Assembly: GCA_947175295.1 (NCBI GenBank)
Contig: CAMWMK010000020.1
Coordinates: 1-45,911, forward strand
DNA length: 45,911 nt
Origin: an uncultured Porphyromonadaceae bacterium
Lineage (GTDB): Bacteria; Bacteroidota; Bacteroidia; Bacteroidales; Muribaculaceae
Direction of reading: 5' to 3'
The position numbers and the translations under genes were made by a program. Below are positions 25,253 through 44,061 of this stretch, one piece after another (the first letter of the stretch is position 1; the number at the start of each line of letters is the position of its first letter). The notes below the pieces were generated by a model. The model ran no database searches. It worked only from the letters and a program-made list of their open reading frames with translations, and was not told the DNA's origin.

Positions 25253-26455
25253 ATGGCGTCAATAAAAGTAAAATACCGGCCTTCTTCCCTCGCAGATCGC
25301 GAAGGAAGGGTTTATTACCAGGTGATCCACAACAGAAAGACCAGGCATATACTTACCGACTACCATCTCTTCCCGTCGGAATGGGATGAGGATAGATCCG
25401 ATATAAGAATCCCTTATGAAAGCGGACGCGCACCCCATCTCACATCGCTGCGGGGGAGTATTAAGCGTGACATCGAACGCTTTGCCCGTATTATCCGACA
25501 GCTGGAAGACACGACAGCGGCCTATACCACCGAATCCATCATAGAGGCCTTCAACAACAGCATATCCGATAAGACCTTGCTCAACGAAATGGAGAAAGCG
25601 GTAGGGCGTCTGACCCGGAATGGTAAGACACGTACTTCCCAGACCTATGCGACAACCTTACGGAGCTTCAGGAGCTACCGCCAGGATAAAGACATTCTTC
25701 TGGATTGTATGAGTTCGGAAGTAATGGAAGGGTATCAGGCATGGCTTCAGCAGAATGGAGTGGCCAAAAACACGATTTCCTTTTATCTGCGAATACTTCG
25801 AGCCGTCTATAACAGAGCTGTCGAGGAAGGACTGACGGAAAACCGCTATCCCTTCCGGCATGTCTATACCGGAGTAGATAAGACCGTCAAGCGTTCGCTG
25901 CCTCTCACCATGATAAAGAAGATAAAGAACCTCGACCTGTCGATGAAGCCGGAGTTGGATTATGCCCGCGATATGTTTATCCTAAGTTTCATGCTTCGGG
26001 GCATGAGTTTCATCGATATGTCTTATCTCAAGAAAACCGACCTATGCAATGGGCATATCACCTATCGCCGCCGTAAGACACATCAGCAGCTTACCATAGC
26101 ATGGACAGCGGAAATGCAACGAATATTGGAAAAATATCCGGAGAACAGGTCAGACTACCTTCTACCTATAATACGCAAGCCGGGCACCAACGAACGTTAT
26201 GTCTTCAAGAATGTCGGGGAGCGAATCAACCGACGTCTTAAGATAATAGCGGACATGGTAGGGATAGAGATTCCCCTCAGCATGTATGTAGCACGCCATT
26301 CGTGGGCATCCATAGCGAAGACAAAGGGAGTGCCGCTGAGTGTCATAAGCGAAGGCCTGGGCCACGAGAAGGAATCCACAACCCGCATCTATCTTTCGAC
26401 ACTTGACTCCAGCGTAATAGACAAAGCCAACGATATGATTTTGAAATTGCTGTAG
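25253..26455 (+). CDS. Tyrosine recombinase / integrase (candidate DNA invertase)
   Basis: The 400-residue protein has the Bacteroidetes integrase layout: an N-terminal arm-binding segment (VYYQVIHNRKTRHILTDYHLFPSEWDE), a SAM-like core-binding domain (about residues 100-210) and the catalytic domain. Catalytic residues are visible as R in FMLRGMSFIDM, the box II HxxR in YVARHSWAS, the following GHEKESTTRIYLSTL with histidine and the nucleophile tyrosine. Such genes act in conjugative elements and also as local invertases that flip promoters of surface genes. Here two inverted repeats around a promoter lie 190 bp downstream, which favours the invertase role. No second element end or transfer genes are seen. 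Confidence 0.93.
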   Translation: MASIKVKYRPSSLADREGRVYYQVIHNRKTRHILTDYHLFPSEWDEDRSDIRIPYESGRAPHLTSLRGSIKRDIERFARIIRQLEDTTAAYTTESIIEAFNNSISDKTLLNEMEKAVGRLTRNGKTRTSQTYATTLRSFRSYRQDKDILLDCMSSEVMEGYQAWLQQNGVAKNTISFYLRILRAVYNRAVEEGLTENRYPFRHVYTGVDKTVKRSLPLTMIKKIKNLDLSMKPELDYARDMFILSFMLRGMSFIDMSYLKKTDLCNGHITYRRRKTHQQLTIAWTAEMQRILEKYPENRSDYLLPIIRKPGTNERYVFKNVGERINRRLKIIADMVGIEIPLSMYVARHSWASIAKTKGVPLSVISEGLGHEKESTTRIYLSTLDSSVIDKANDMILKLL

Positions 26456-26550: not shown

Positions 26551-26645
26551 TCCTTTGTGCAAGCTATACGCAACTTAGGCCGACATCCTTATGCAGGCCC
26601 TCTCCTACCCCATGATTAATAAGCCAATATGTTTTAACCGAATAC

Positions 26646-26673
26646 GCATCTCTTGCCAAGAGATACCTATTTT
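26646..26673 (+). repeat. Left inverted repeat of the invertible segment
   Basis: This 28 bp copy pairs with the reverse complement of 26812-26839 with a single mismatch at its second base (C here, T in the partner). The core is itself near-palindromic: arms ATCTCTTG and CAAGAGAT around one C. Confidence 0.9.
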
Positions 26674-26811
26674 ATGTATTTAGTTGAATATTAATAATTT
26701 ATAAGGATGCATGCCTATGAAATTTAAAACATCTTAAAACATTCGGTGAAAAATGTATGATTTTTATTTGGAAAATTTTTATAAATCAAATATTTTGTGT
26801 AACTTTGTGAC
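26674..26811 (+). promoter_or_regulatory. 138 bp invertible promoter segment, ON orientation
   Basis: The segment between the two inverted repeats is very A+T-rich and has no gene. It contains TAACTTTG at 26800-26807, a perfect Bacteroidetes -7 box, with a TTTT stretch about 20 bp upstream (26777-26780) in place of -33 TTTG. Transcription would start near 26813 and run through the right repeat into the FHA gene at 26983. Flipping the segment would turn the promoter toward the 3' end of the recombinase gene and leave the island without it. Inference from layout. Confidence 0.75.
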
Positions 26812-26839
26812 AAAATAGGTATCTCTTGGCAAGAGATAC
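26812..26839 (-). repeat. Right inverted repeat of the invertible segment
   Basis: Reverse-complement partner of 26646-26673 (27 of 28 match). This copy lies within a perfect 31 bp palindrome with 15 bp arms, AATAGGTATCTCTTG and CAAGAGATACCTATT, around one G; the single centre base differs between strands and would define direction of crossover. Confidence 0.9.
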
Positions 26840-26982
26840 CTATTGAAGGCGTCAAATTAGACTTGTTTTTATTCATTCGATAATGGCATAACACGATGAT
26901 AATTTGAGCTGAGATGATTCGTCTGTAAATGTGACTGACGATCGCGAAGCGTACAAAATAAAATAAAACAGAAAACAAACAT
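26840..26982 (+). other. Untranslated leader of the signalling island
   Basis: If transcription starts at the invertible promoter, about 170 nt precede ATG 26983. I see no gene and no clear riboswitch fold here. A TAATTTGAG stretch near 26899 is one base short of a -7 box. Confidence 0.4.
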
Positions 26983-27603
26983 ATGACTTCATTCACCTTA
27001 GGCAGGGATTATGATATCCCATTTTCCATTGACGGGAAACATACTTCTGTCAGCCATAATCATGCTTCCATAGAAATCGACGGTAACAACTGGACACTCA
27101 TTGACAATGATTCAACCAACGGAACCTTTATAGAGGACAATGGTATCTTCCGTCAATGTAAAAAAATTAGAATTTCACCCAACACGTGGATAAGGCTTGG
27201 AGAGCAAGGTCACCGCGGGTTTTACTTCAAGGCCCGTAGGGTCCTTCATCCCAATGACTATAGGGAGGATTTTGAAGAGCTATATGAAACCTATCAAGAA
27301 CTGGATGAATCCAAAAGACAATTGGAATCACACAGACGGGCTGTTAAGTTCATCACACCACTTCTGATGTGTCTCGGTCTGTTATTATCCTTTCTACCTG
27401 GCATCAAAGACAACGGACTTGCTGTCAGAGCTTCATTCATGCTTCCCGGTTTTGTATCACCCTTCATCCAGGACATTATGCTCAATAAACTGGAAAAGAG
27501 AATAAAAAAACTACAAGGGGAATTGATATGCCCTAAATGCCGCCGCTCATTAGGAAAAGACGATATAATCAATAGAGAACATTCATTCTGTCACGCACAC
27601 TAA
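26983..27603 (+). CDS. Membrane-anchored FHA-domain protein with C-terminal zinc ribbon
   Basis: The 206-residue protein begins with a forkhead-associated domain (residues 1 to about 85: LGRDYDIPFSI, then SVSHNHASIEIDGNNWTLID, then NDSTNGTFIEDNG), which binds phosphothreonine. A coiled coil follows (EDFEELYETYQELDESKRQLES), then two hydrophobic helices (FITPLLMCLGLLLSFLP and FMLPGFVSPFI), another charged helix, and a C-terminal CPKCRRS...HSFCHAH metal-binding end. It is first after the invertible promoter and lies 1 bp before the caspase gene. It likely reads phosphorylation by the island's kinases at the inner membrane (inference). Confidence 0.88.
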   Translation: MTSFTLGRDYDIPFSIDGKHTSVSHNHASIEIDGNNWTLIDNDSTNGTFIEDNGIFRQCKKIRISPNTWIRLGEQGHRGFYFKARRVLHPNDYREDFEELYETYQELDESKRQLESHRRAVKFITPLLMCLGLLLSFLPGIKDNGLAVRASFMLPGFVSPFIQDIMLNKLEKRIKKLQGELICPKCRRSLGKDDIINREHSFCHAH

Positions 27604-28422: not shown

Positions 28423-28454
28423 CTTGGGATATGCAATTCAAGATATTAATTTTG
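28423..28454 (+). promoter_or_regulatory. Internal promoter before the first acidic protein
   Basis: CTTG at 28423-28426 and TAATTTTG at 28447-28454 are 20 bp apart and fit the -33 and -7 elements. The predicted start near 28462 is about 20 nt before ATG 28484, and the 87 bp gap after the caspase stop makes an independent transcript likely. Confidence 0.55.
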
Positions 28455-28483
28455 CGAAAGAAAACCATTCAACCGAAACACTT

Positions 28484-29260
28484 ATGGGTACAGTAAGATT
28501 CAACAACACAACTGGAAACGGCACTCAGAAAACGTGGACGCGTGCAAGCATAGCCGCTGCCGTTGCAGCCGGAGCAATAACCACCGAAGCCGCTAATCTT
28601 CTCTATAGCCAATTGGCTTCAGATAGTTATCCCGACCCTGCGCCTGAGCCTGTCCCGGATCCTGAGCCTATAGTGGAATCAGTGCCAACACCGAATCCGG
28701 CTCCGGACACCGATCCCACGCCTGCTCCAGAACCGGTACAAACACATCAAACCCCACATACCGAGCAACCGGAACGCATGTCTACTCCTGAACCCACTCC
28801 TCAACCGGAACCGGACCCTGTTCCTGAACCTATACCGGATCCAGAGCCATTTCCCGAACCGAATCCTGAGCCGGATCCTTACACCGGAGAATGGGTAGAT
28901 GTAGTGGATGTCATCGTGACGGAGATCGACCCTCTTGACATAGATATGGAGGACATCTTCTTTGTCGAAGACATTGGCGTCATCTATACAGAGGATGGCT
29001 CTGAACTGAATGTGGCTGTTATCAGTGATGGACTTGGAACCACTAACATGTTTATCGATGTGGATGGCGATCAGGTCTATGATTTAGTAGCCACTGAAGA
29101 CGGCGAAATAGATCAGATTCCTATTGATCTTGATGTCAGCGACATGGAATTAATCTACGCGCAACAACACAGCTACGACGGCTATATCGAGCCAAATGAC
29201 TTTGACATAGCGATGAATGAGGAAAACAGCGATATCCAAAGTGATATATCATTATCTTGA
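28484..29260 (+). CDS. Acidic proline-rich protein A, unknown function
   Basis: I start at ATG 28484 ([18 protein letters not shown]), because the open frame upstream contains the promoter. The 258-residue product has a short N-terminal module with an alanine-rich helix ([19 protein letters not shown]), a long Pro/Glu/Asp linker made of PEPxPDP-like repeats (about residues 50-135), and a strongly acidic C-terminal part ending [10 protein letters not shown]. No signal peptide or enzyme motif is seen. It shares its start (MGT.xFN) and end (DIQxD) with the protein two genes downstream. It may be a scaffold or a protease/kinase substrate; I do not recognise a family. Confidence 0.7.
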
Positions 29261-29275
29261 TAAAACAGGTTAGTC

Positions 29276-29422
29276 ATGGAAAACAAGACAAGACGTTTGG
29301 TGGTTTGCGATCAATGCGGAGTGAAGTATGCCTTCACTGTTCCTCAGAAAGATGGAGCCTATATGATAGAATGTCCGCGCTGCCACAAGGAGATAAAATT
29401 CAAAGTCATCAACAGTAAATAA
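29276..29422 (+). CDS. Small zinc-ribbon protein, 48 aa
   Basis: A short frame from ATG 29276 to TAA 29420-29422 reads MENKTRRLVVCDQCGVKYAF and continues with two further strands. Two CxxC pairs, C11-C14 region (CDQC) and CPRC near residue 34, form a zinc knuckle like those in the FHA protein at 30085. It sits between the two acidic genes with short gaps (15 and 14 bp), so it is likely translated. It may be a stand-alone version of the zinc-ribbon modules of that FHA protein. Confidence 0.75.
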   Translation: MENKTRRLVVCDQCGVKYAFTVPQKDGAYMIECPRCHKEIKFKVINSK

Positions 29423-29436
29423 AAGACTATACACTT

Positions 29437-30081
29437 ATGGGCACTATACCTTTTAATGCTGATGCGACCCTCAATGAAGGCACTCAGGATAAGAAAAAAT
29501 TCGAAATCAACGATAAGGCGAAAGCTGCCATGGCAGCCGGAGGTGTCGGTGTTGCCGCTGGCGCCGGAGTGAAAGCTGCTGTGGATGCCTTGAACAATGA
29601 AACAGATGAGGATTCCTATTCGGAACCTGAGAAACAAGATATACATGCTGATTCCACAGCTCAGACCGTAACCTTGACCGAATCCACGGAATCCACGGAA
29701 AGCATATCGACAGCTGAAGTCAATCCTGATGAAGTCATGCTTGAAGAACCGGTCTTGGAAACCACGGTTGTAGAACAGGTGGCTGACAATTCCGTATCTA
29801 ATGCAGAAGATTCTGTCTACCATCCATTTGCCAACAATGACGTATTAGAGGATGTAGTGTACGATGGTGTCATGTCTGTGGATGATCTATATGCGCAAGG
29901 AGATGAGTCTGACATTGAGTTAGATGTCAATCCTGTAGACCTTATCTGTGGTGAACCTGATTATGTAATAGACGAGACTATTGAAACCATCGAAGATATC
30001 AATTATCATCCTGATGATAATTACGCATGGGAATCGGAGGCTAATTATGACACAGATATTCAGACAGACTTAATGGCTTAA
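29437..30081 (+). CDS. Acidic protein B, unknown function, relative of acidic protein A
   Basis: The 214-residue protein begins MGTIPFNADATLNEGTQDKK, then has a Gly/Ala-rich helix (KAAMAAGGVGVAAGAGVKAAV) that resembles a glycine-zipper membrane-active segment, and then about 150 residues rich in Asp, Glu, Ser and Thr. The end reads YDTDIQTDLMA, matching the end of protein A ([10 protein letters not shown]). No signal peptide or known domain is visible. Serine/threonine runs (TVTLTESTESTESISTAE) could be kinase targets (inference). It is followed after 3 bp by the zinc-ribbon/FHA gene. Confidence 0.7.
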   Translation: MGTIPFNADATLNEGTQDKKKFEINDKAKAAMAAGGVGVAAGAGVKAAVDALNNETDEDSYSEPEKQDIHADSTAQTVTLTESTESTESISTAEVNPDEVMLEEPVLETTVVEQVADNSVSNAEDSVYHPFANNDVLEDVVYDGVMSVDDLYAQGDESDIELDVNPVDLICGEPDYVIDETIETIEDINYHPDDNYAWESEANYDTDIQTDLMA

Positions 30082-30084
30082 GCA

Positions 30085-30936
30085 ATGGATGAGGTAAATA
30101 AATTGTCTCTGAGATGCCCTACTTGCGGAAAAGATTTCAAATGTAAGTCTCCCAACGCACCCGGTGACTATTCAGTAGCATGCCCGAATCAGGAATGTAA
30201 GGCCAAGGTGAGTTTCCGTTTCCCGATTGAGGGGAAGTCCCAACAGACAAAAAAGAACACCGAAGTCAGGTTAGGTTTACTCGACGATGGATCCTATCGG
30301 TTCCTCTGTAAAAACGATACATGTCAGAAATCTGTACTCGTTCCGGCCAAAATGGTCAAGTCCGGGCATAACAAAGCGATTTGTCCTAACTGTAAGACGC
30401 CACACGAGTTCGATGTGGAACCAAAGGAATCGGATTTACTCAAGTGTCAGATAGCAGGATGTGGTGGTCTTCTGTTGAAGCCGGATCGTGGCGACGGGAT
30501 ATACAGTTCTGTATGTGATAAATGTAAACAGGAATATTCAATCATCATACAAGGGGACAAAGTTGTCAAAGTCGCCATGAAGACATCTGTCTCTGTAGCT
30601 CCTAAGCGACAGACCCCAATGAAGCTTGTGTCCGGAACATTTATATCGAAGAAGGAATACTCGCTCACAAAGGGTTCTCATTACATAGGCCGACAGGATG
30701 AGCAGAAGGTTTCTGACTTCTCCATCAGGGATAAGTACGCCTCCAGCCGGTCTGTTAGGATAGATGTGAATGAAAACGGAGGTAGAATCGTGTATCGGAT
30801 GACAGTAGAACGGGCCATGAATCCTGTATATCACAATAACAGTGAACTCACTGTAGGTGATATCGTATATCTGACATATGGAGACACCATAAAGCTGGGT
30901 AAAACTCTAATCAAAGTACAAAAAGCAACCTCATGA
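30085..30936 (+). CDS. Multi zinc-ribbon protein with C-terminal FHA domain
   Basis: The 283-residue cytosolic protein contains several CxxC knuckles: CPTC and CPNQEC near the start, CKNDTC, CPNC around residue 100, CQIAGC and CDKC. They form two or three zinc ribbons. The C-terminal 90 residues are an FHA domain (YSLTKGSHYIGRQDEQKVSDFSI, SSRSVRIDVNENGG, ELTVGDIVYLTYGDTIKLGKT). It should recognise phosphothreonine while the ribbons bind protein or nucleic acid. Its stop overlaps the PP2C start by 4 bp (ATGA), so reader and phosphatase are made together. Confidence 0.88.
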   Translation: MDEVNKLSLRCPTCGKDFKCKSPNAPGDYSVACPNQECKAKVSFRFPIEGKSQQTKKNTEVRLGLLDDGSYRFLCKNDTCQKSVLVPAKMVKSGHNKAICPNCKTPHEFDVEPKESDLLKCQIAGCGGLLLKPDRGDGIYSSVCDKCKQEYSIIIQGDKVVKVAMKTSVSVAPKRQTPMKLVSGTFISKKEYSLTKGSHYIGRQDEQKVSDFSIRDKYASSRSVRIDVNENGGRIVYRMTVERAMNPVYHNNSELTVGDIVYLTYGDTIKLGKTLIKVQKATS

Positions 30937-31853
30937 TAATAGAATTAGATTCTGTCTATTCTTTCCATCAATTGGGAGGAAGGGACAATCAGGAAGATTC
31001 AAGATATCCTGATTCAGACACTATCGCTATAGACTGCGCGGCTTTCGCAGTTTGTGATGGTGTTGGTGGTTGTGAGAAAGGAGAGGTAGCCAGCGCCACT
31101 GTCTGCCGCCGCATTGGAAAGCTTGTTGCATCACACAGAAACACTGATCTATTTACCGATCAGGATTTCAGGTATCTACTTACTCAATGTTACAGTGCCT
31201 TGGATGAAGTGTCCGACAAAACGAACCGTGGGATGGGTACTACCCTGACGTTTCTTGCGTTTCATTCCGGCGGAGTACTTGCAGCCCACATAGGCGACAG
31301 CCGAATATATCAGATCAGGCCGAATGAAGGAATAATATACCGGAGTGAAGATCACTCGCTCGTTAATTCTTTGCTAAGGTCAGGCAATATATCTCCGGAT
31401 GAAGTAAGGAATCATCCCAAAGGGAATGTTATCACACGATGCATGAGTGCCACGGAAAAGAATCGGGAGAGGGACGACGCTACGGTGGTAAACCTTCAGG
31501 ATGTCGCTCCCGGAGACTACTTTCTGATGTGTACTGACGGCGTATCCGGAAACACCGATGACGAGGGTTTGATCGATATTTATTCCTCAGACAGGACCGA
31601 TGAGGATAAATATATGTATCTGGCTGAAAGAAGTAAGGACAGCAGTGACAATAACACCGCTATTCAGATACATATCGGGCTCGTGACAATCGATCCTCAG
31701 AGAGATGACGATGAAGAGGAGGAGGAAGGCAGTCACCCATATTTCGGAACCCAAAGGTTACTGAAAAAAGCTGAATCCTCACATGAAATCTCAGCCGTCT
31801 CCCCAAAGCCTCAATCTGTATTCAAATCATTATTTAACCGACTATTCAAATGA
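30933..31853 (+). CDS. PP2C-family Ser/Thr protein phosphatase
   Basis: The 306-residue protein has the full set of PP2C metal-binding motifs: GGRDNQED (D22), FAVCDGVGG (D42, G43), AAHIGDSRIY, MCTDGVSGN (D202) and SSDNNTA (D239, N240). It should remove phosphate from Ser/Thr residues using Mn2+ or Mg2+, countering the island's kinases. After residue 255 comes an acidic stretch (DDDEEEEEGSHPYFG) and a basic tail, possibly an interaction arm. There is no membrane segment. It overlaps genes on both sides by 4 bp, a strong sign of operon coupling. Confidence 0.94.
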   Translation: MIIELDSVYSFHQLGGRDNQEDSRYPDSDTIAIDCAAFAVCDGVGGCEKGEVASATVCRRIGKLVASHRNTDLFTDQDFRYLLTQCYSALDEVSDKTNRGMGTTLTFLAFHSGGVLAAHIGDSRIYQIRPNEGIIYRSEDHSLVNSLLRSGNISPDEVRNHPKGNVITRCMSATEKNRERDDATVVNLQDVAPGDYFLMCTDGVSGNTDDEGLIDIYSSDRTDEDKYMYLAERSKDSSDNNTAIQIHIGLVTIDPQRDDDEEEEEGSHPYFGTQRLLKKAESSHEISAVSPKPQSVFKSLFNRLFK

Positions 31854-33421
31854 AAATAATAATTATAAGTGCATTCCTCATGGGTCTGGGGTCCCTGGCT
31901 GGTTCGGCAAAAGACCCCGTAAATTCCAACGCTAATCCCAATACCGATGCGACGGCAGTTCGCACTCAAGAAATCAGGGACAGTCTGAACGCCATCATGG
32001 ACAAGGCCAAGGCCGGCGACGCATCTGCCATGAACGAGGTTGGAACATGGTACTACAATGGAAAGCATGTCAATCAGGACTATGCTCAGGCTTACGAATG
32101 GTGGAAGAAAGCCTCTCTGAAATCCAACATCAGGGCCATCGCAAATCTTGGAATGTGCTATCAGCTGGGCCGAGGAATCGAACGGGACTCCGTGGATGCC
32201 GTCAGGCTCTATGAGAAATCGATAAAGGAAGGCAACAAGGTTCTGCTGTCCCAAAGAAGTGAGAATGCGGACATGAGCGCATTCGATGCCATGCTTGTCG
32301 GAGATTGCCATGAAGAGGGAATCGGCGTAAAGAAGGATCTTGCAAAGGCAGCTGACTTTTATGCTAAAGCCGCTGCCAAGGGAAGCGTAGACGGAATGCT
32401 TAAGGCAGGACTTTGCTATCTCAATGTGAAGAATCCGGGGAAGGCCATAGGATATTTTGAGAAAGGCGCATCCAAAGGCAATCATGCGTGCGAATATTGG
32501 GCTGGGAAAATGCTTCTCGGAGGTATGGGTATCTCTCCCAACAAGCAACAGGCTGTGGTGTATCTTCTTAAGGCAGCAGAAGCCGGAATGCCTGCTGCTC
32601 AGGCTGAGATGGGAATTCTCTATTCTGAAGGCAACGGAGTGACTAAAAACATTCAGCAATCTGTGGATTGGAACCGAAAGGCAGCTATGCAGGGAAATCC
32701 CAAAGGCATGTGGAATTACGGCAATGCACTGAAAGACGGAAATGGAGTAGAACAGGATTATGATCAAGCTCTGTTCTGGATGGCAGAAGCTGGAAAAGAA
32801 GGCTATCAACGAGCATTCAAGAGGATAATCGCCACTCTTGACTCTATCGGTACAGACCCGTTCGTTAATTACGTACACGGAATGAAACTGTATCTTGTAG
32901 ACGGAAGAATGAAGGAAGCATCCGAGCAGTTCAAGAGAGTCGAGAAGGCCAATATTAATGAAGGTAAGATAATGCAAGCGGTAATACTTGCAAGCAAACG
33001 CAACGAAAAAGGCAATGCCAAGAAAGCCGTCAAGGAACTTGAAAAATTTGCATCTGCCAATTCCGAAGCAGCGTTCTATCTTGCTACTTTGTATGAAACC
33101 GGCAACGGGACTGACACTGATATGTCAAAAGCCATAGAACTCTACCGCAGGTCAGCCGACATGGGATATGGCAAAGCCCAGAGTTATCTCGGCGATATTT
33201 ATTATGAGGGCCGTGGAACAGAGAAAGACTTGCTCTCAGCGGTGGCCATGTATCAAAAGGCACTTGCAAACCGACAGCTAACTCCTAACGGCGCTACCAG
33301 ACTCGCCGAATGTTATGAAAACGGACTTGCGGGGCTACCCCAAGACAAGAAGAGGGCCGAACAGCTCCGAAAAGGTAAATATCAGGATAATGTGAATACG
33401 TTGCTTAAGGGATTGGAATGA
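31850..33421 (+). CDS. Exported Sel1-repeat protein, 523 aa
   Basis: The start MKIIIISAFLMGLGSLAGSAK is a signal peptide, so the protein is periplasmic or secreted. The rest is mainly Sel1-like repeats (about 36 residues each) such as AMNEVGTWYYNGKHVNQDYAQAYEWWKKAS and AQAEMGILYSEGNGVTKNIQQSVDWNRKA. Sel1 arrays are solenoids that bind proteins, for example in stress signalling and as peptidoglycan-hydrolase partners. Start and stop each overlap a neighbour by 4 bp. It is the first of at least six exported repeat proteins in the island. Confidence 0.9.
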   Translation: MKIIIISAFLMGLGSLAGSAKDPVNSNANPNTDATAVRTQEIRDSLNAIMDKAKAGDASAMNEVGTWYYNGKHVNQDYAQAYEWWKKASLKSNIRAIANLGMCYQLGRGIERDSVDAVRLYEKSIKEGNKVLLSQRSENADMSAFDAMLVGDCHEEGIGVKKDLAKAADFYAKAAAKGSVDGMLKAGLCYLNVKNPGKAIGYFEKGASKGNHACEYWAGKMLLGGMGISPNKQQAVVYLLKAAEAGMPAAQAEMGILYSEGNGVTKNIQQSVDWNRKAAMQGNPKGMWNYGNALKDGNGVEQDYDQALFWMAEAGKEGYQRAFKRIIATLDSIGTDPFVNYVHGMKLYLVDGRMKEASEQFKRVEKANINEGKIMQAVILASKRNEKGNAKKAVKELEKFASANSEAAFYLATLYETGNGTDTDMSKAIELYRRSADMGYGKAQSYLGDIYYEGRGTEKDLLSAVAMYQKALANRQLTPNGATRLAECYENGLAGLPQDKKRAEQLRKGKYQDNVNTLLKGLE

Positions 33422-33831
33422 ATATAATCTGTATAAACACGAGAGACGAACTCAATCTGATCGACCTTGACTTAGTGGCCTGCATCAACGCGAACGGCAA
33501 CTACAGCAATGTGATGTATATCGACGGAAACAAACTGATGGTTTCCGTCGGTCTCTCTCAGTTTGAAGCCATCGTAAAGAAAGCGCTTTCCAAACAGGAA
33601 TCCGCCAATACATTCGTTCGTCTTGGCCGAAGCATCATTGTCAACAACCGATATCTGAGCCAGATCAACCTTCTGAAGCAGAAGCTTACATTATCCGACC
33701 GGGGAACTCATGCCTACCAGCTAACTGTACCCAAAGCGATTTTAAAAAGCTATAAGGAACTTATACGCAATTCATATACAGGTAATAGTCAAGGTTGTGA
33801 CAACTCAGTATCAGGACTTACCGAAAATTAA
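33418..33831 (+). CDS. Stand-alone LytTR-type DNA-binding protein
   Basis: The 137-residue protein resembles the LytTR domain: DLVACINANGNYSNVMYIDGNKLMVSVGLSQFE for the first strands and FVRLGRSIIVNNRYLSQI for the conserved core, followed by KLTLSDRG and a basic end. There is no receiver domain, so its signal must come another way, perhaps from phosphorylation by the kinase 8 bp downstream. LytTR proteins bind paired short repeats. The start overlaps the Sel1 stop as ATGA. It is the only recognisable transcription factor in the island. Confidence 0.85.
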   Translation: MNIICINTRDELNLIDLDLVACINANGNYSNVMYIDGNKLMVSVGLSQFEAIVKKALSKQESANTFVRLGRSIIVNNRYLSQINLLKQKLTLSDRGTHAYQLTVPKAILKSYKELIRNSYTGNSQGCDNSVSGLTEN

Positions 33832-33839
33832 ATAAAATC

Positions 33840-35801
33840 ATGGACGAGACTATGGCGTTGCAGCCGGGAGTCAGGCTACAGAGCAAAGACCGAACATATG
33901 AGATAGACAAGGTATTGGGAGCCGGATCATTCGGCATAACATACCTTGCCACTGCAACTGTCCCAATCGGAAATATTTCGACTACCATCAAATTCGCCAT
34001 TAAGGAGTATTTCCTTTCTGATTCATGCTACCGTGGAGACGACGGTATCACTGTATACGCTTTACCGAAAGATAAATCAACCGTGGCAAGCAGTCGGATT
34101 GATTTTATCAATGAGGCTAACAGACTAAAGAAAATATGTCATAAGTCACGAAATATTGTAAGCGTCAACGAGACTTTCGAAGCAAACGGAACTGCATACT
34201 ATGTCATGGAGTATCTCGATGGCGGAAATCCGACAAAATGCACTGAGGATGAGGCGATATCAATCGTGCAGCAGATTGCAGATGCCCTTGAGATAATCCA
34301 TCAGGACGGCATAATCCATATGGATCTCCGCCCGGACAACATTGTGATGAAAACTACCGAGAAGAACGGCACATATCCTGTGCTCATCGATTTCGGCATA
34401 TCCTTGTATTTCGACTCCAAGGGTAAATCAGAAACCACCCTCACCATCAAGGGAGCTTCTCCCGGATATGCTCCACCGGAGCAGGTTTCAAGGAAATGTA
34501 AATTTTCTCCCCAGTATGACATCTATGCTTTGGGCGCAGTGCTGTTCTATCTTTGTACAGGAAAAACTCCTCCTAAAGGCAGTGACATCTCTCAGGATCA
34601 AACTCAACTGAGGGAAGTTCTCGATGGCCGTGTTTCCACTAATATAGAGACAGCTATCCTTAACGCCATGCTTCCGGACGCTCAATACAGGACTCTAAGC
34701 ATTCAGAAATTCCGCGATGACCTTATGGGAATCGTCTTCCAGCCAAAATTGGAAGTCATGGAAACCCTGATTGACTTTACCAAAGAAAAATCGGAACAGA
34801 CTGTAGAAGTAGATACAAACATCGACTGGACTGTATATGCAGACGGCGATTGGTGTAGCGTATCAAAAACAGATGACTCTATATCGATCTCAGTTTCAAA
34901 GAATCATGATGGAAGTCCCAGAAGTTGCAATGTCTTTGTAAATGGATTGACTGAAAACGTATCACGTCTGATAAATGTCAGACAGGCAGGGACAGGTACA
35001 GTCATATTCCGTGATGAAGATAGCTGGTGGGACATTAATAGCAGGAAAGTGTATGCTGCTGTGTCCGTATTGGCTATCATCGGGTGTATTTACGGATTAT
35101 ACGTGTGGGTAAAGCCAACCTTATCATCAGCTACAGACTCCATTGCTGATGCCACTCCCACCTCTTCGAGCGACACTATAGATAGCCAAGAGCATGACAT
35201 AAATATTGACCGAGATACTGTCAAAAGTGATCCTGACAAGCAGGTTATAACCCCTACCCCGGACAACCATAATGAAGAAAAAGAACCCGAAAAGCATGAC
35301 ATACCTGTTGAAGAGACCAACGACGCTAAGTTCGCAAGGGCAAGCAAGACCAATGACAACGCCTTGATGCTTTCATTGGCTCAAGCCGACTATGCCAAGG
35401 CGTATTATCCTGTTGCTCTCAACTATTATAACAAAGGGAATAAGGATCAAGCTAAATCCTGGGCCAATAAGGCTATCGCGGCTAATGTAAACCGCACGCA
35501 AGCTCAAGCATTACTTGATAAGTTAACACCTCCTTCTCCACCGACACCTACAGATGATGAACTGTTCGCAAAAGCAAAAACATTGGAAGATTACAAAGTA
35601 TTGGCCGACAAGGGATATGCTAAGGCTTACGCTCCCTTAGCGGATAAATATTTTTCCAACAAAGACTATGCCAATGCTGATAAATATGTACGTAAAGCCT
35701 ACTCTTCCAATAGCGGACGGCCACAGGCAAAGACTGTCGCTGATAAACTTGAAGTGATTGGATTCTATGATAATGGCGAGAACGGAGGAAAACCACGATA
35801 A
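33840..35801 (+). CDS. Ser/Thr protein kinase 1: kinase, BACON-like domain, membrane helix, Sel1-like tail
   Basis: The 653-residue protein has a Hanks-type kinase domain (about 15-295): P-loop VLGAGSFGITYLA (G27-G32), K55 in FAIKEYF, E92, catalytic loop HMDLRPDN (160-167, with R where most have K), DFG 184-186 and GYAPPE 209-214. Residues about 303-383 resemble a BACON domain (DTNIDWTVYADGDWCSVSK, then SPRSCNVFVNGL, then INVRQAG). A membrane helix lies at about 405-424. The tail outside the membrane has a Ser/Thr/Pro/Asp stretch and short Sel1/TPR-like repeats (DYAKAYYPVALNYYNKGN). The kinase would face the cytosol and its repeats the periplasm, where the exported Sel1 proteins are. Confidence 0.93.
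   Translation: MDETMALQPGVRLQSKDRTYEIDKVLGAGSFGITYLATATVPIGNISTTIKFAIKEYFLSDSCYRGDDGITVYALPKDKSTVASSRIDFINEANRLKKICHKSRNIVSVNETFEANGTAYYVMEYLDGGNPTKCTEDEAISIVQQIADALEIIHQDGIIHMDLRPDNIVMKTTEKNGTYPVLIDFGISLYFDSKGKSETTLTIKGASPGYAPPEQVSRKCKFSPQYDIYALGAVLFYLCTGKTPPKGSDISQDQTQLREVLDGRVSTNIETAILNAMLPDAQYRTLSIQKFRDDLMGIVFQPKLEVMETLIDFTKEKSEQTVEVDTNIDWTVYADGDWCSVSKTDDSISISVSKNHDGSPRSCNVFVNGLTENVSRLINVRQAGTGTVIFRDEDSWWDINSRKVYAAVSVLAIIGCIYGLYVWVKPTLSSATDSIADATPTSSSDTIDSQEHDINIDRDTVKSDPDKQVITPTPDNHNEEKEPEKHDIPVEETNDAKFARASKTNDNALMLSLAQADYAKAYYPVALNYYNKGNKDQAKSWANKAIAANVNRTQAQALLDKLTPPSPPTPTDDELFAKAKTLEDYKVLADKGYAKAYAPLADKYFSNKDYANADKYVRKAYSSNSGRPQAKTVADKLEVIGFYDNGENGGKPR
34221..34534 (+). repeat. 314 bp block identical to 41579-41892
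   Basis: Within the kinase catalytic core the DNA of kinase 1 and kinase 2 is identical for 314 bp with no differences, including third codon positions. Similarity falls off on both sides. This indicates recent gene conversion or duplication. Confidence 0.9.
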
Positions 35802-35820: not shown

Positions 35821-37488
35821 ATGAAAAGATTCTTTACTCTTATGATACTGGCTGTTGCACTGACGCAAGGGAGTCTTGCGGATACAGAATATTCAAAGGA
35901 ACTTGAGGCAAAGGCTCAGAATGGAGATGCTTTCGCACAGGCCCAATTAGGATATTGTTATCATGCCGGAGCCGGAACTGAACAAGATTACACCAAGGCT
36001 TTTGAATGGTTTAAAAAGAGCGCGGAAAATGGAAACTCCTATTCTATGTATTATATGGGAAGAAGTCTTCTCTTTGGCGAAGGTACTGAAGATGATCAAT
36101 ATGAAGCCGTCAAATGGTTTGAAAAGAGTTATGCTCATGGATATGAAAAGGCCAAGGAAATGTTAAGCCAAATTGCACTCCCGGAAGAATCATTCGGATT
36201 AAAACTCATTACACTTGCGGAAGAAGGTGATGTTGAAGCTCAAAACGCACTTGGAGCTTTCCTTTGGTCGCAATTGAACATGAAAGGTATATATGAAATA
36301 AAGGATAATAACAAAGCTTTTTATTGGATGCAGAAAGCTGCCGAAGGCGGAAATATCAATGCCATACACGATCTTGCCATATTTTACATGCGAGGTGACG
36401 GGACGGCAAAGAATGAAAACGAGGGAGCACGATATTTTCAAATAGCTGCTGATAAAGGATTGAAATCAGCTCAACATAATCTCGCGTTATGTTATCTAAA
36501 AGGTGTCGGAGTGGAAACAGATAATATTAAAGCTCTTTACTGGTTAGTAACTGCGGCCGAAAGCGGACACGATCAGTCCATGTTAATGCTTGGACTTATA
36601 TATGAAAATGGAGAATATGGCGTTACACCCGACCTCTCTATTGCCATAGACTGGTATAATAAAGCTGCAAGGTCAAAGTCCGATTATGCCATGGTACGTC
36701 TCGCTGACTTTTACATGCAGGGCAAAGGTGTCAAGAAAGACTTTTGGAAAGCAGTTGAGCTTTATGGCGAAGCCCAGCAATTAGGCAATGAATATGCCAC
36801 ACAAGAAATCATGCGGCTGTCAGGTGAAATAAGAAAGAAATTTCCCAAATACTTTGAATCCGTCAAGGAAAAAGCCTCCAACGGGAATGCGAGATCGCAA
36901 GCCATACTTGCAGTATACTATATGGGTGATTTACCAAGGGTTTACAAAATAGACCTCCTTGATCCTTTAAAGGAGGCAACCAAATGGGTTCTGAAAGCAG
37001 CGGATAACGGGTATGATGATCTTTATTACCTTGCCGGTGAAATCTTCGAGACCGGGAATCTTCCTTTTGTAGAGATGGGAAAGGAACAGAGGATTAAGTT
37101 ATCCTATGGAAAGAAACCAGTGCAACAAATAGATCTGTCTAAAGCAAGACATTATTATGAGATGGCGAGTAATTCGAATGCCGAAAACAGATGGGTCGCC
37201 ATGTACAAGCTCGGTAAAAGCTATTACAATGGCGGCAAACTGGTAGGAGACGTGGACTATGATAAATGCGTAAAGTATCTTCAACCCTTGATATCTTATC
37301 TTGAGGATCATGCACCGGGATCTACGGAACTTAGGGAGGTATATGAGATTATGAGTAAATGTTACCGTCATGGCCGAGGAATCGCGGCCGATGAGGATAT
37401 GGCTGACTCACTTTTGAAGAAAAGCGCGATGCTTGGTAATACGCAACCTTGGGAGAAAAACATATTTTCCTCCTGGGCCTTGAGGTAA
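35821..37488 (+). CDS. Exported Sel1-repeat protein, 555 aa
   Basis: A signal peptide (MKRFFTLMILAVALTQGSLA) is followed by Sel1 repeats for most of the length, for example AFAQAQLGYCYHAGAGTEQDYTKAFEWFKKSAENGN and AQHNLALCYLKGVGVETDNIKALYWLVTAAE. Near the end is YEIMSKCYRHGRGIAADEDMADSLLKKSAMLGNTQ, a signature shared with two further Sel1 proteins downstream. It starts 19 bp after kinase 1 and probably works with its periplasmic tail (inference). Confidence 0.9.
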   Translation: MKRFFTLMILAVALTQGSLADTEYSKELEAKAQNGDAFAQAQLGYCYHAGAGTEQDYTKAFEWFKKSAENGNSYSMYYMGRSLLFGEGTEDDQYEAVKWFEKSYAHGYEKAKEMLSQIALPEESFGLKLITLAEEGDVEAQNALGAFLWSQLNMKGIYEIKDNNKAFYWMQKAAEGGNINAIHDLAIFYMRGDGTAKNENEGARYFQIAADKGLKSAQHNLALCYLKGVGVETDNIKALYWLVTAAESGHDQSMLMLGLIYENGEYGVTPDLSIAIDWYNKAARSKSDYAMVRLADFYMQGKGVKKDFWKAVELYGEAQQLGNEYATQEIMRLSGEIRKKFPKYFESVKEKASNGNARSQAILAVYYMGDLPRVYKIDLLDPLKEATKWVLKAADNGYDDLYYLAGEIFETGNLPFVEMGKEQRIKLSYGKKPVQQIDLSKARHYYEMASNSNAENRWVAMYKLGKSYYNGGKLVGDVDYDKCVKYLQPLISYLEDHAPGSTELREVYEIMSKCYRHGRGIAADEDMADSLLKKSAMLGNTQPWEKNIFSSWALR

Positions 37489-37520
37489 CCTAATTATCCA
37501 CCCTTTAACCGAGAATTACA

Positions 37521-38579
37521 ATGTTACGCAATTCCATACTATTCATTTTCTTAGTAATAACGACCACAGTCTACTCTTCACCCTTATATTCAGAGCTTGA
37601 TGGGCTTTCGGCCAATGCCCTGAAGGGTGCTCAAATATTAGACGAATCCCGTACTTCCAAAGAGCGGCTTCAGACAGCATTGTCTTTGATACGCTTCGAT
37701 GCCGAGGAAGGAAACGCGGCCGCAAATTATGTCTTGGGGGTTATCTATTCCCAAGAGGCTGATCGGTATGGCAAGTTTTACGATATAATATTCGATGAAT
37801 ACAGTGATGATTATAACGACTCTCCTATCGACATGGCTGAAATGGATTACTCAATAATTCGAGAGAATAGAGAATCATATTCTACTTATAGGTCAGATTC
37901 AGCCATATATTATTATGAGACAGCAGCCAATAAAGGTTACGTTCCTGCTATGAACAATCTTGGGTATCTGTATTCCCAATACAGCTTTGAAGAATACCGC
38001 AACAAAGCATTATTCTACTATATTAAGGCAGCGGAAGCCGGAAGCGCAGCCGCCTATACCAATTTAGGCAGGGAATACTTCTGGGGTGGAAACTTAGTCG
38101 ACTATGATTTCAACAAAGCGGTCACGTACCTGGCCAAAGCACTCGAACTGGGAGATAATACAGATGAGACTTTTCTAATGCTTGGATATTGCTATGAGAA
38201 AGGTCTGGGAGTAAGGCAAGACTACAAAAAAGCTATTGATATCTATACGCAAGCTCCAGACAGGTCGAATATCATCAATATTCTTGGAGGAAATGTGGGA
38301 AACTTTTCCATACCGAGCAGGTTGGGCATATTGTTTTATTCAATAGATGAGGTCAGGGATTATGACAAGGCTTTCAAATACCTGAAAGCGGTAGCAGATC
38401 AGGTTGTACGTGAGGTTGGAGAAACCCGAGGATACATATTGCGATGTCTATCCGCATGCTATAGGTTTGGCCGTGGTACTGCTGTTGACCTGGAGAAAGC
38501 TGATTTCTATCTGAAAGAAGCCGGTGAATTCGGTAATATCGATGCGCAGAAAGCTCTCGAGTACCTATCTATGGAGTAG
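37521..38579 (+). CDS. Exported Sel1-repeat protein, 352 aa
   Basis: The signal peptide is MLRNSILFIFLVITTTVYSS. Sel1 repeats follow (NYVLGVIYSQEAD, AMNNLGYLYSQYSFEEYRNKALFYYIKAAE, TFLMLGYCYEKGLGVRQDYKKAIDIYTQ), interrupted by an acidic insert (about residues 90-105). The C-terminal part, LSACYRFGRGTAVDLEKADFYLKEAGEFGN, matches the closing signature of the Sel1 proteins at 35821 and 39985, which marks these as paralogues. Confidence 0.88.
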   Translation: MLRNSILFIFLVITTTVYSSPLYSELDGLSANALKGAQILDESRTSKERLQTALSLIRFDAEEGNAAANYVLGVIYSQEADRYGKFYDIIFDEYSDDYNDSPIDMAEMDYSIIRENRESYSTYRSDSAIYYYETAANKGYVPAMNNLGYLYSQYSFEEYRNKALFYYIKAAEAGSAAAYTNLGREYFWGGNLVDYDFNKAVTYLAKALELGDNTDETFLMLGYCYEKGLGVRQDYKKAIDIYTQAPDRSNIINILGGNVGNFSIPSRLGILFYSIDEVRDYDKAFKYLKAVADQVVREVGETRGYILRCLSACYRFGRGTAVDLEKADFYLKEAGEFGNIDAQKALEYLSME

Positions 38580-38618
38580 GCCATAATCCTCTAAGTAAAA
38601 TTTTTAATCATCAGCTAT

Positions 38619-39209
38619 ATGAGAAAGAAACTATTTGTAACATTACTCATGATCGTGAGCATCATCCTCACCGGATCTGCGTATAAGAAAGCAAGTAACG
38701 GTGATGCAAAGGATGCTAACTATATTTATATCGTAACACAAGAATGTACGAATAGACCTGAATCTAACGATGAAATGATAATTAAAATTAGTAATTATCA
38801 TTTCTTTGAATGGGCAAGCTATGAATTGGGAATTTCTTATAATAATAATACTGTCCTTTATGGAGTTCTTGCATTAAAAAATGCGGAGAAAAGAGGTTCG
38901 AGTCTTTACTTTGTGTTGGACGGTGTCAATGAACAGACAAACGAACATGTAGAAATAATATTGATTGCTGACAGTCACCAAACCACCCTAACTATTAAGA
39001 CTCCTGAAAACGGAACTAAATTAAGTTTGCCCTCTGATATAATCTATATCAGAAAAGATAATCCGTATACGAAGATCTTTTTCAATGGTATTGGTAGCAG
39101 AGGCATGCCAGGTCCATTTGAGACTTCGTTTACTGATCCGTGGACTATCGGGACAACTAAACAACTAAAGCTATGTCTCGCCCAGAATCCATATCTAAGA
39201 AAGAAATAG
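38619..39209 (+). CDS. Small exported protein, first tandem copy
   Basis: The 196-residue protein begins with a signal peptide (MRKKLFVTLLMIVSIILTGSAYKKAS). There is no lipobox cysteine. The mature part is mostly predicted strands (MIIKISNYHFFEWASYELGISY, SLYFVLDGVNEQTNEHVEIILI) and ends TIGTTKQLKLCLAQNPYLRKK. I do not recognise the family. The next gene is a paralogue whose signal-peptide DNA is nearly identical, while the middle has diverged. Confidence 0.75.
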   Translation: MRKKLFVTLLMIVSIILTGSAYKKASNGDAKDANYIYIVTQECTNRPESNDEMIIKISNYHFFEWASYELGISYNNNTVLYGVLALKNAEKRGSSLYFVLDGVNEQTNEHVEIILIADSHQTTLTIKTPENGTKLSLPSDIIYIRKDNPYTKIFFNGIGSRGMPGPFETSFTDPWTIGTTKQLKLCLAQNPYLRKK

Positions 39210-39233
39210 TAATATCAAATAATCATCAACAAT

Positions 39234-39806
39234 ATGAGAAAGAAATTATTTGTAACATTACTCATGATGGTGAGCATCATCCTCACCGTATCAGCTTATA
39301 AGAAAGCAAGCAATGGGTATGCTAAAGAAGCGAGAACAATTTGTATTATGACCGAAGGATCATCCAATACAAATGAGAAAAGAGATGGATTTTCGATTAA
39401 AATAATAGATAATTTCAAATGGTCATATTCTTGGGATATACTGATCGTTATTGAAAACGATACTATCCTTTCAGGCGATTTTACATTGAGAAGAGCCGAG
39501 AAGAAGGATGGAAATCTCTACTTCGGTGCAGAGGGTATCAATGAAAAGACAAGAGAAGAAATGGAGCTTTCCATCTTCTCCAATGACCAACAAACTTCAT
39601 TTTCCTTTAAGAGTCCCGAAGAGGGTGTGCAATTGGATATGCCTCGTGACACATTTGTTGTCAATAAAGAAAATCCGGAGACAAAGATATATTTCAGCCG
39701 GATACCTGGTTGGCCATTTAAACCTGATGTACCATACTGGAAAATCGGAACAATCAAGCAACTGAAAATATGCCTTTCTCAAAACCCCTACTTAAAGGAA
39801 ATGTAG
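39234..39806 (+). CDS. Small exported protein, second tandem copy
   Basis: The 190-residue protein starts MRKKLFVTLLMMVSIILTVS and ends KIGTIKQLKICLSQNPYLKEM, mirroring the gene 24 bp upstream. The core (FTLRRAEKKDGNLYFGAEGINEKTREEMELSI) aligns with the neighbour's LALKNAEKRGSSLYFVLDGVNEQTNEHVEI. The fold is likely an all-beta domain exported to the periplasm or surface. Function is unknown. A broken Sel1 gene end follows directly after its stop. Confidence 0.75.
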   Translation: MRKKLFVTLLMMVSIILTVSAYKKASNGYAKEARTICIMTEGSSNTNEKRDGFSIKIIDNFKWSYSWDILIVIENDTILSGDFTLRRAEKKDGNLYFGAEGINEKTREEMELSIFSNDQQTSFSFKSPEEGVQLDMPRDTFVVNKENPETKIYFSRIPGWPFKPDVPYWKIGTIKQLKICLSQNPYLKEM

Positions 39807-39932
39807 AGAAAGGATAACGCCACCAAAGCAGATGGAATGATTCGTATCGCGAGTGAATATAGAAATCCAGATGCCGAGAAAATCAATAAATGGCTGTTTG
39901 GAGACATTAAGAAATGGTTGAGCGAATGGTGA
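39807..39932 (+). pseudogene. Remnant 3' end of a Sel1-repeat gene
   Basis: Directly after the stop of the preceding gene the sequence reads, in one open frame to TGA 39930-39932, KDNATKADGMIRIASEYRNP and then DAEKINKWLFGDIKKWLSEW. This aligns with the end of the Sel1 protein at 39985 (KDITKADDLIDIAASYGNS, then TAKIINEWLNNK). The rest of the gene is missing, so this is a fragment left by deletion or duplication. An ATG at 39837 could start a 31-residue peptide, but I do not think it is a gene. Confidence 0.7.
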
Positions 39933-39984
39933 ATCAAACTGCATTTAAATCATCTACCTAAAATAACATTCAACTATCAGCATT

Positions 39985-41184
39985 ATGAAAAATATAGTCA
40001 ACGTAATGGTTTCTTTCATTGTAGGGAGCATAATCATATGTTTCCCAATACTTGCAATGAGTAAAAACGTAATGTCTGAGAGGACAAATTCACAAGCAAT
40101 GAAAGTTCTTAAGAATGACATTGACCCCAATCCAAGTCTAGAGGCATGCTATACTCGTGGAATGAATATAATTTCATTCAACCAAAAATGTAGCTCAACA
40201 GATAGAGAAAAGAACTTCCTGATGGCCTTACCTTGGCTTGAGAAAGCACGTGGATACAAAGATGAACTTGGCCTTCTTTCGATATGGGTAGGCCAAGGAT
40301 TTACTAAAGAACATAACTTTAATAAAGCAAAAGAATGGTATGAACGATCCATTCAATATGGAGAATCCCAGGGATATCGCTTTCTTGCCGAACTTTACGA
40401 GAATCCATGCGATACGGTATTGAAAAGCGACTATAAAACAGCATTAACCTATTGGGAGAAGTTTGCCGACACCAATGATGCATATGGGCTCTATACGCTT
40501 GGAAGATATCACAAAGAAGGATTAGCTTATACCGCAGACATCGAAAAAGCAATGGCATATTTCCATAAAGCTGCAAGTCTGGAATCCGGGATTGCTTCAT
40601 TGTATGCGATGGATAATCTGGCGTCATGCTATCTCTCACGGAAAGATTGGGGAAATGCCTTTTATTGGCTTGATCAGGCATATTCCAAAGATTTCATGAT
40701 AGTATGTCATAATCTTGGAGATATGTATTATCATGGCAATGGAACCAATCAATCCTACCCCAAAGCATTTGAAATCTTCAGTAAAGGTTCGAAATTCGAC
40801 GCTCATTGCAAGTACAGAGTCGCATATATGCTTAGGAATGGACTCGGTACTGATGTTGATTTTGGAAGATCAAACTTATTATTGAAGGAAGCCGCTGATG
40901 AAAATAATGCCAGAGCATTGTATCTTTTAGGAACGTTACTGTACTCCGGTGACAATATCACCCAAGACTACAAATCTTCCATCAATTGTTTTGAGTCGGC
41001 TCTGAAAGATAAATATCTACCTGATGCTGTAAGAGGTGAAATTTATCGTATCCTGTCGACTTGTTATCGTTTTGGACGAGGCGTAACAAAAGACATAACT
41101 AAGGCTGATGATTTGATAGATATTGCAGCGTCCTATGGAAATTCAACTGCAAAAATCATCAATGAATGGTTGAACAATAAGTAA
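39985..41184 (+). CDS. Exported Sel1-repeat protein, 399 aa
   Basis: The N-terminus MKNIVNVMVSFIVGSIIICFPILAMS is a signal peptide or anchor. Sel1 repeats include AYGLYTLGRYHKEGLAYTADIEKAMAYFHKAASL, FMIVCHNLGDMYYHGNGTNQSYPKAFEIFSKGSK and ARALYLLGTLLYSGDNITQDYKSSINCFESAL. The closing LSTCYRFGRGVTKDITKADDLIDIAASYGNS is the family signature seen in the Sel1 proteins at 35821 and 37521. It lies 7 bp before kinase 2, as a Sel1 gene adjoins kinase 1. Confidence 0.88.
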   Translation: MKNIVNVMVSFIVGSIIICFPILAMSKNVMSERTNSQAMKVLKNDIDPNPSLEACYTRGMNIISFNQKCSSTDREKNFLMALPWLEKARGYKDELGLLSIWVGQGFTKEHNFNKAKEWYERSIQYGESQGYRFLAELYENPCDTVLKSDYKTALTYWEKFADTNDAYGLYTLGRYHKEGLAYTADIEKAMAYFHKAASLESGIASLYAMDNLASCYLSRKDWGNAFYWLDQAYSKDFMIVCHNLGDMYYHGNGTNQSYPKAFEIFSKGSKFDAHCKYRVAYMLRNGLGTDVDFGRSNLLLKEAADENNARALYLLGTLLYSGDNITQDYKSSINCFESALKDKYLPDAVRGEIYRILSTCYRFGRGVTKDITKADDLIDIAASYGNSTAKIINEWLNNK

Positions 41185-44034: not shown

Positions 44035-44061
44035 GTTTATACTTAATACAAATAACTAAAC

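Follow-up and report, generated by a model that had tools for sequence, protein, structure and literature searches.

The stretch of DNA analysed here (the window; 45,911 nt) makes up the entire contig C20 of a 202-contig genome (G000, 91% complete). It carries a tyrosine recombinase gene, a short intergenic segment enclosed by inverted repeats and, to the right of these, a long run of genes for FHA-domain, caspase-like, PP2C-type phosphatase, Sel1-repeat, LytTR and Ser/Thr kinase proteins, which we refer to as the island (Table 1). GC content is 52% in the left part of the window and 42% in the island, and falls to 21% between the repeats. Since the third kinase gene is cut by the right end of the contig, the island probably extends past the window.

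Table 1. Features of the recombinase, switch and island region of the window
Feature	Position	Strand	Basis or remark
Tyrosine recombinase, 400 aa, proposed invertase; arm-binding, SAM-like and catalytic domains	25253..26455	+	PF17293, PF13102, PF00589
Outer putative arm-type element, TCGGTTAAAACATAT	26627..26641	-	AAAC core in register, 14 nt outside left core site
Left core site, ATCTCT-TGCCA-AGAGAT	26648..26664	no strand	sequence reading and pattern
Proposed invertible segment, enclosed by the 28-bp arms	26674..26811	no strand	21% GC
Internal putative arm-type element, AAATTTAAAACATCT	26720..26734	+	at the place fixed among relatives; highest profile score in the switch
Bacteroidetes-type -7 box, TAACTTTG	26800..26807	+	13 nt from right core site
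Perfect 15-bp hairpin	26814..26844	+	near expected 5' end of ON transcript
Right core site, ATCTCT-TGGCA-AGAGAT	26821..26837	no strand	spacer is the reverse complement of the left spacer
Remnant of NusG/UpxY-like antiterminator gene start, VNVTDDREAYKIK*	26925..26966	+	intact in ortholog G005:C255
FHA-domain protein, first gene of the island	26983..27603	+	Pfam (PF00498)
Caspase-like peptidase C14	27605..28336	+	Pfam (PF00656); hydrophobic N-terminus by eye
Two proteins without Pfam match (28424-29260, 29437-30081)	28424..30081	+	kept in island orthologs of G013 and G005
Protein without Pfam match	30085..30936	+	zinc-ribbon and FHA-like by eye only; kept in G013 and G005
PP2C-type phosphatase	30933..31853	+	
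Sel1-repeat protein	31850..33421	+	
LytTR DNA-binding protein	33418..33831	+	
Ser/Thr kinase with BACON domain	33840..35801	+	
Sel1-repeat proteins (35821, 37521, 39985) and two proteins without Pfam match (38619, 39234)	35821..41184	+	
Second Ser/Thr kinase with BACON domain	41192..43150	+	
TPR and Sel1-repeat proteins	43222..44931	+	
Partial third kinase	45576..45854	+	cut by contig end

An inverted-repeat search returned two arms of 33 nt (26641-26673 and 26812-26844; 94% complementary) enclosing 138 nt, and the longest perfect arm, at 26 bp, exceeded the maximum of 10-16 bp reached in 30 simulated sequences of equal length and dinucleotide frequencies. An earlier note on this DNA had described two 28-bp inverted repeats with one mismatch, a perfect -7 box between them that points at FHA, a tyrosine recombinase gene ending 190 bp leftward of the repeats, and an ON state, and all four statements held on re-examination: the arms at 26646-26673 and 26812-26839 differ at one position, the box lies within the 138 bp on the plus strand, the recombinase ORF stops 190 bp before 26646, and the orientation is ON-like, with the box facing the FHA gene. 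The Bacteroidetes -7 box has the consensus TAnnTTTG, and no strict match to it was found on the opposite strand of the 26674-26811 segment. Scanning the surroundings of the switch for sigma-70 promoters and terminators yielded no more than was obtained from shuffled sequences, and no Rfam match reached the gathering score in the window.

Each arm is itself palindromic, ATCTCT-N5-AGAGAT (the right arm as returned by the inverted-repeat search, the left one by reading the sequence), and because of this the arms resemble recombinase core sites with two half-sites. The wider core consensus of the family described below is T-N4-ATCTCT-N5-AGAGAT-N4-A, and the T at 26643 and the A at 26669, on either side of the left core site, match it.

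A family of paired sites in the genus

The pattern of a single core was present in 80/111 genomes of the genus, with 10 copies in the window's own genome, and its reversed control gave one copy each in 7/111. Pairs of core sites with 154-184 nt between the sites occurred in 34/111 genomes (56 pairs; 0 for the reversed-pattern control), and in an order-level sample of 393 genomes a pair was found in 5, the own genome included, with the control matching in one genome. From the fetched loci we compiled a catalogue of 71 switches (66 from the genus, 5 from beyond it), chosen by their arms and not by the -7 box, in which one changed end base per site was permitted and matching spacers were demanded; the same 56 pattern-found pairs were recovered in it, and L187 (an overlapping pair, 271 nt) and the more degenerate switch of G022:C25 were left out. 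A strict TAnnTTTG box lay 11-15 nt inside one arm in 63/71 of these switches and at both ends in none (chance, ~0.6%).

Recombination by tyrosine recombinases needs matching spacers. Among the strict pairs lying 150-330 nt apart in the fetched loci, selected with no demand on the spacer, 65/66 had reverse-complementary spacers, and in the lone exception (G033:C14) one site belongs to a switch and the other is a third site nearby. The five complete switches of the window's own genome all have different spacers (TGCCA, TGCTA, TATGA, TGGTA and TTCTA). Spacers recur within other genomes (AAATA three times and AAATT twice in G033; TGCCA twice in G014), which limits, in such genomes, the idea that the spacer serves as an address. 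Centre-to-centre distances between the two sites grouped at 173-176, 183-188 and 193-201, with single cases at 163, 208, 271 and 299, and followed a period of 11.45 bp (bootstrap 11.05-12.0) that was not equalled in strength by any of 5000 uniform simulations (58 deduplicated switches, of which the 56 under 215 were used). A period of this length would fit sites that are obliged to share one face of the DNA.

A third element, ATTTGCTAAACAAAT, was centred at positions 77-81, counted from where the distal core begins, in 43/71 switches, and 43 of the 47 forward matches inside switches fell there (at least 12/15 positions matching; background rate 0.08 per kb). Matches outside the switches lay mostly about 14 nt from a core (21/26 at 13-15 nt, either side and both strands counted). 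Under a looser rule, with the AAAC core in register, the element was seen inside 53/71 switches, outside on the left in 12/71 and outside on the right in 29/71, and the three bases before AAAC were identical inside and outside in 23/37 comparisons, which none of 5000 permutations reached. Because the recombinase has an arm-binding domain (PF17293), we propose that the ATTTGCTAAACAAAT-like elements are arm-type recombinase sites. In switches adjacent to a recombinase gene the outer element tends toward the recombinase side, which offers a lead.

The putative arm-type elements of the window diverge from the family consensus and fail the 12/15 rule, yet carry TTA-AAAC (TTAAAACAT) both inside and outside the switch. 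The internal element sits at exactly the expected position, and ~0.1% of the positions in the window score as high (p ~0.009, nine offsets having been tried). On the right of the window's switch no outer element was seen. This degeneracy, together with the lack of a visible right outer element, is what would be expected of a former switch that became locked ON, its promoter fixed and its repeats left as relics; likewise, at G054:C81, whose recombinase is among the two closest to the window's on the tree, only one core site and a partial switch remain. We nevertheless consider a locked switch quite improbable in the window, where 26-bp perfect arms and matching spacers are retained, the recombinase ORF is open across all three domains, and the internal and outer elements carry the same variant.

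Opposite orientations among related switches

Sister switches were found inverted between shared flanks. In a comparison of G005:C40 with G134:C107, the flanks aligned at 88% over 150 (left) and 81% over 104 (right), and the inner segment aligned at 94% over 181 bp when inverted, as compared with 65% over 99 bp in direct orientation. G005:C40 and G054:C228 gave the same picture (flanks 87% and 93%; inner segment 93% over 178 bp inverted). As G054:C228 and G134:C107 are in like orientation (92%) and G005:C40 is opposite, one switch is seen in both of its states across three genomes. Two pairs within single genomes have one flank in common and the inner segment inverted (G014:C151/C194, flank 97%, segment 91%; G130:C11/C69, flank 98%, segment 88%), and another, G033:C8/C53, has one flank in common and orientation alike.

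The island itself has close relatives, with FHA orthologs of 59-75% identity in 4 other genomes of the 111 (G013, G146, G005 and G125). Recombinase, switch and island follow one another in the window's order in G013 and G005; the G146 contig is cut 62 bp upstream of FHA, and no site was found in the 636 bp upstream of FHA in G125, such that a switch is seen in 3/5 island orthologs, the window counted. The promoter points toward the island in the window and in G013, where the box is weaker (TAACTTTC), and away from it in G005. The window's inner segment aligned uninformatively to those of G013 and G005, in either orientation. The earlier note's reading of the segment as an invertible promoter is thus supported by the anatomy of the family, by sister switches inverted between shared flanks and by the opposite direction at an orthologous island. 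It had named a promoter direction fixed across relatives as the result that would count against inversion, and the direction varies: the G005:C255 promoter points away from its island, and within this site class orthologous switches were found in inverted form between shared flanks.

These observations also bear on the idea that nothing inverts here at all, with the palindromic arms acting as regulator binding sites or as RNA hairpins around a fixed promoter. Each arm is palindromic, the right one forms a strong hairpin near the 5' end, and the leader (26812-26982) folds with z -3.7. In sister elements with the same sites, however, the sequence is inverted exactly between those sites, and the reverse-complementary spacers would be needless for a regulator, making such an arrangement highly implausible.

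For the window's own segment, the arm pattern (up to 3 mismatches) matched only the window locus and C38 in the own genome, and no flipped copy was found there. The exact 28-nt arm pattern gave no match in viral contigs, and no relatives of the FHA protein or the recombinase were confirmed in them. Across the catalogue, 9/71 switches lay less than 250 bp from a contig end, as compared with 1.7 expected, an excess that could arise from mixed orientation, although repeats common to switches could do the same. Because the window's switch lies 19 kb from the contig end, the assembly gives no hint of mixed orientation at this position.

The recombinase and a model for the switch

The switch of the window has a tyrosine recombinase gene beside it, and this adjacency recurs in relatives. 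Matches to the recombinase at E<=0.001 were present in 94/101 genomes searched, and the seven named loci with recombinase relatives were assigned to Muribaculaceae (2), Porphyromonadaceae (1), Prevotella (2), Bacteroidales (1) and Bacteroidetes (1), which suggests a Bacteroidales host, perhaps one of the Muribaculaceae. At least two sites were found in 27/36 genomes with a close homolog (E<1e-130) vs 4/25 others (Fisher p 6e-6, the strongest of six combinations of cut-off and measure, all with p<=0.0011; 61 genomes). Nine of the 36 genomes with a close homolog have fewer than two sites, and 4/61 genomes (G007, G011, G029 and G036) have at least two sites and no homolog better than 1e-100.

Among 61 recombinase homologs, six of which had been fetched because of a switch, 17 were followed by a pair of sites and a further 6 by a lone one, at most 2.5 kb downstream; for the other 38/61 no site was found in the downstream sequence at hand, which was often short. 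We considered whether local sites mark one recombinase clade and discarded the idea, as the 23 homologs do not form one clade and 14 changes are required on the tree, a number as low being obtained in 8/500 shuffles, with bootstrap not settled. A supported clade (G000:C23, G005:C154, G014:C113, G054:C67 and G055:C143) had no local site in the sequence examined. Four of these genomes (G000, G005, G014 and G054) hold a G134:C107-type switch whose arm elements are GCT, and the pair-pattern search found no such switch in G055; the tree was built without the G134 recombinases. This clade is at most a candidate for acting in trans.

The switch of the window could accordingly be inverted by a recombinase from elsewhere, such as the 56% identical one at G000:C23, with the local gene idle or serving other sites. 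A single tyrosine recombinase of Bacteroides fragilis is reported to serve both a local and a distant promoter (PMC4747536), and G000 has three recombinase homologs and five complete switches, of which the other four have no recombinase among the neighbouring genes listed; the clade without local sites that includes G000:C23 points the same way. Set against this are the recurrence of recombinase-switch adjacency in relatives and the arm-type variant, with TTA in the window vs internal GCT in the other four complete switches of G000, a difference that a local enzyme with a specificity of its own would lead one to expect. We therefore regard an enzyme from elsewhere as unlikely, though worth keeping in mind.

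In our judgement the 138-bp segment is very probably a reversible promoter switch that controls the island, the recombinase being most likely the one encoded 190 bp away. In the model that we propose, a tyrosine recombinase, most likely the product of the adjacent gene, would bind both palindromic core sites, with its arm-binding domain contacting the ATTTGCTAAACAAAT-like elements (in the window, TTAAAACAT) inside and beside the switch. Strand exchange would take place within the 5-nt spacers, which must match, and would invert the segment. In the ON state, which is the orientation of the window, the -7 box would drive the long FHA-caspase-PP2C-Sel1-LytTR-kinase island, possibly as one unit; in the OFF state the inverted box would point at the recombinase gene's 3' end, leaving the island silent. 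More tentatively, the family may amount to a genus-wide, address-coded switchboard with a common core code and arm element, the 5-nt spacer as address, spacing by whole helical turns and specificity classes of recombinase and arm element, with phosphosignalling as one output set through which part of a clone might arm a possible stress- or phage-responsive kinase/protease system.

Further switches of the own genome are complete on C2, C38, C46 and C86 and cut on C30; these distant switches have the core half-sites of the window and differ from it in spacers and arm-type class. Those on C2 (L109, 6464-8782) and C86 (L112, 7574-9847) are longer (inner 282 and 254 nt) and adjoin DUF3575 proteins and a protein of ~400 aa in which helix-turn-helix matches are numerous (by Pfam for L109, by clustering for L112). 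The C38 switch (L026, 34-248), which by eye adjoins a typA-like gene, and the one at the end of C30 (L098) are paralogous and lie beside alike terminator-like flanks; their inner segments are, by eye, in opposite orientation relative to that flank. In a recombinase-adjacent switch elsewhere (L242, G057:C282), both inner half-sites share, by eye, the change AGAGTT/AACTCT, possibly another specificity class.

Cargo and known systems

The leader of the island was first taken for a conserved RNA element and is in fact a remnant of a NusG-like gene. G005 has an intact NusG-family gene (PF02357) between switch and FHA, and in the window and G013 the remnant persists in the leader, which suggests that an antiterminator-bearing switch, as in capsule loci, later acquired signalling cargo. 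PADLOC, run on 10 island proteins, returned no complete system, and the kinase, caspase and PP2C gave partial matches to single components (mad6, PD-T4-6, caspase, PDC-M21C).

Kinase/FHA islands of several types lie behind 7/71 switches, with the promoter facing the island in 2 and away in 5; six of the seven switches are among the 56 pattern-only pairs, and G101:C41 was fetched via its FHA match. Apart from the orthologs of the window's island, they comprise G012:C4 (zinc-ribbon-FHA, kinase-FHA, PP2C-like), G134:C132 (FHA, two kinases, PP2C-like), G033:C2 (NusG part, kinase, Sel1-like) and G101:C41 (LytTR, FHA, caspase), where the calls of PP2C, Sel1, LytTR and caspase come from BLAST against proteins of the window. 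The box faces away from the cargo in all four loci, and in G101 and G134 it points toward another gene. Of 16 genomes examined for kinases, some had been selected for carrying them. Further cargo may be missed, since up to 5 genes per side were judged and 28/323 cargo proteins were run against Pfam. Seven more FHA-caspase islands (FHA 24-30% identical) were found in G108, G046, G018, G031, G045, G143 and G119, and among their fetched sequences a site was found only in G046. There, contig C33 stops one base past the site, ~21 bp before a LytTR-FHA-caspase island. Other cargo included a cluster of 20 NusG/UpxY-like proteins (PF02357 matched two members and missed one).

In layout, as distinct from sequence, the locus resembles the Tsr19/BF2766 system of B. 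fragilis (IVp-I, IVp-II), described as an invertible promoter immediately 3' of a tyrosine recombinase gene, with another promoter elsewhere and ON/OFF states set by orientation, whose cargo is exopolysaccharide and outer-membrane genes (PMC4747536). Distant switches with the same repeat in one genome are found in G000 as well, where the core half-sites are alike. The Mpi capsule promoters of Bacteroides are reported as invertible segments of ~183-186 bp, with transcription beginning inside the proximal repeat in B. intestinalis; Mpi is a serine recombinase with repeats ARACGTTCGTN / GTTCGTTTAA (PMC8375218), as opposed to the PF00589 recombinase and ATCTCT-N5-AGAGAT of the window, and we therefore rejected an Mpi-controlled promoter. 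An UpxY antiterminator is described as often the first gene behind Mpi-type capsule promoters (PMC12632263). A phase-variable capsule locus was likewise rejected, as the window has a NusG-like remnant only, and signalling genes instead of polysaccharide genes.

Bacteroidota inverton groups defined with PhaseFinder likewise have inverted repeats around a promoter motif and are tied to recombinase groups, and their main text names no kinase, caspase or FHA (PMC11892184), though the present family may correspond to one of these groups; the window has inverted repeats around a promoter, recognised by its motif, in an intergenic segment. The KKP kinase-kinase-phosphatase anti-phage module combines Ser/Thr kinases and a phosphatase, as the island does, and the opening of its abstract mentions no FHA, caspase, Sel1 or invertible promoter (PMC11341870). 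Inversion before signalling genes is not new as such, since it is reported upstream of an operon for a two-component system with a histidine kinase in Clostridium difficile (PMC5903667). In the reports consulted, the main subjects of phase variation in Bacteroidales are surface structures, outer-membrane proteins and restriction systems (PMC4747536, PMC8375218, PMC12632263, PMC5903667). The earlier note had thought cargo of this kind undescribed, and a limited open-access full-text search agreed with it, returning no report of an invertible promoter before FHA/Ser-Thr kinase/caspase islands. The kind of system, a local tyrosine-recombinase invertible promoter, is known; the cargo and the grammar of the sites appear to be new.

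A switch before kinase/FHA/phosphatase/caspase islands would mean that clone-mates differ in signalling, and perhaps in the readiness of a protease response. The site grammar (core, spacer, arm-type element, helical spacing and fixed -7 position) makes it possible to recognise switches in assemblies together with their probable ON/OFF state, and yields specific predictions on recombinase specificity.

Several other switches adjoin cargo of different kinds. At L123 (G101:C14, 5060-9868) and L044 (G022:C25, 3428-8201), the switch has on one side a divergent ~170-aa gene and on the other an operon that encodes a DUF4007 protein together with one of ~1070 aa that matches AAA weakly (by Pfam for L123, by eye for L044); given this position inversion would toggle between the operon and the ~170-aa gene, and the arrangement looks like a phase-variable defence-type locus. 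At L210 (G423:C2, ~5974-6166), the switch lies between paralogous three-gene runs, both pointing away from it (988/520/292 aa on one side, 991/476/279 aa on the other), and may select one or the other set of paralogs. At L126 (G026:C18, 342-8960) and L115 (G033:C14), the switch precedes SrfB-like, Virul_Fac-like and subtilase genes (Pfam for L126, clustering for L115).
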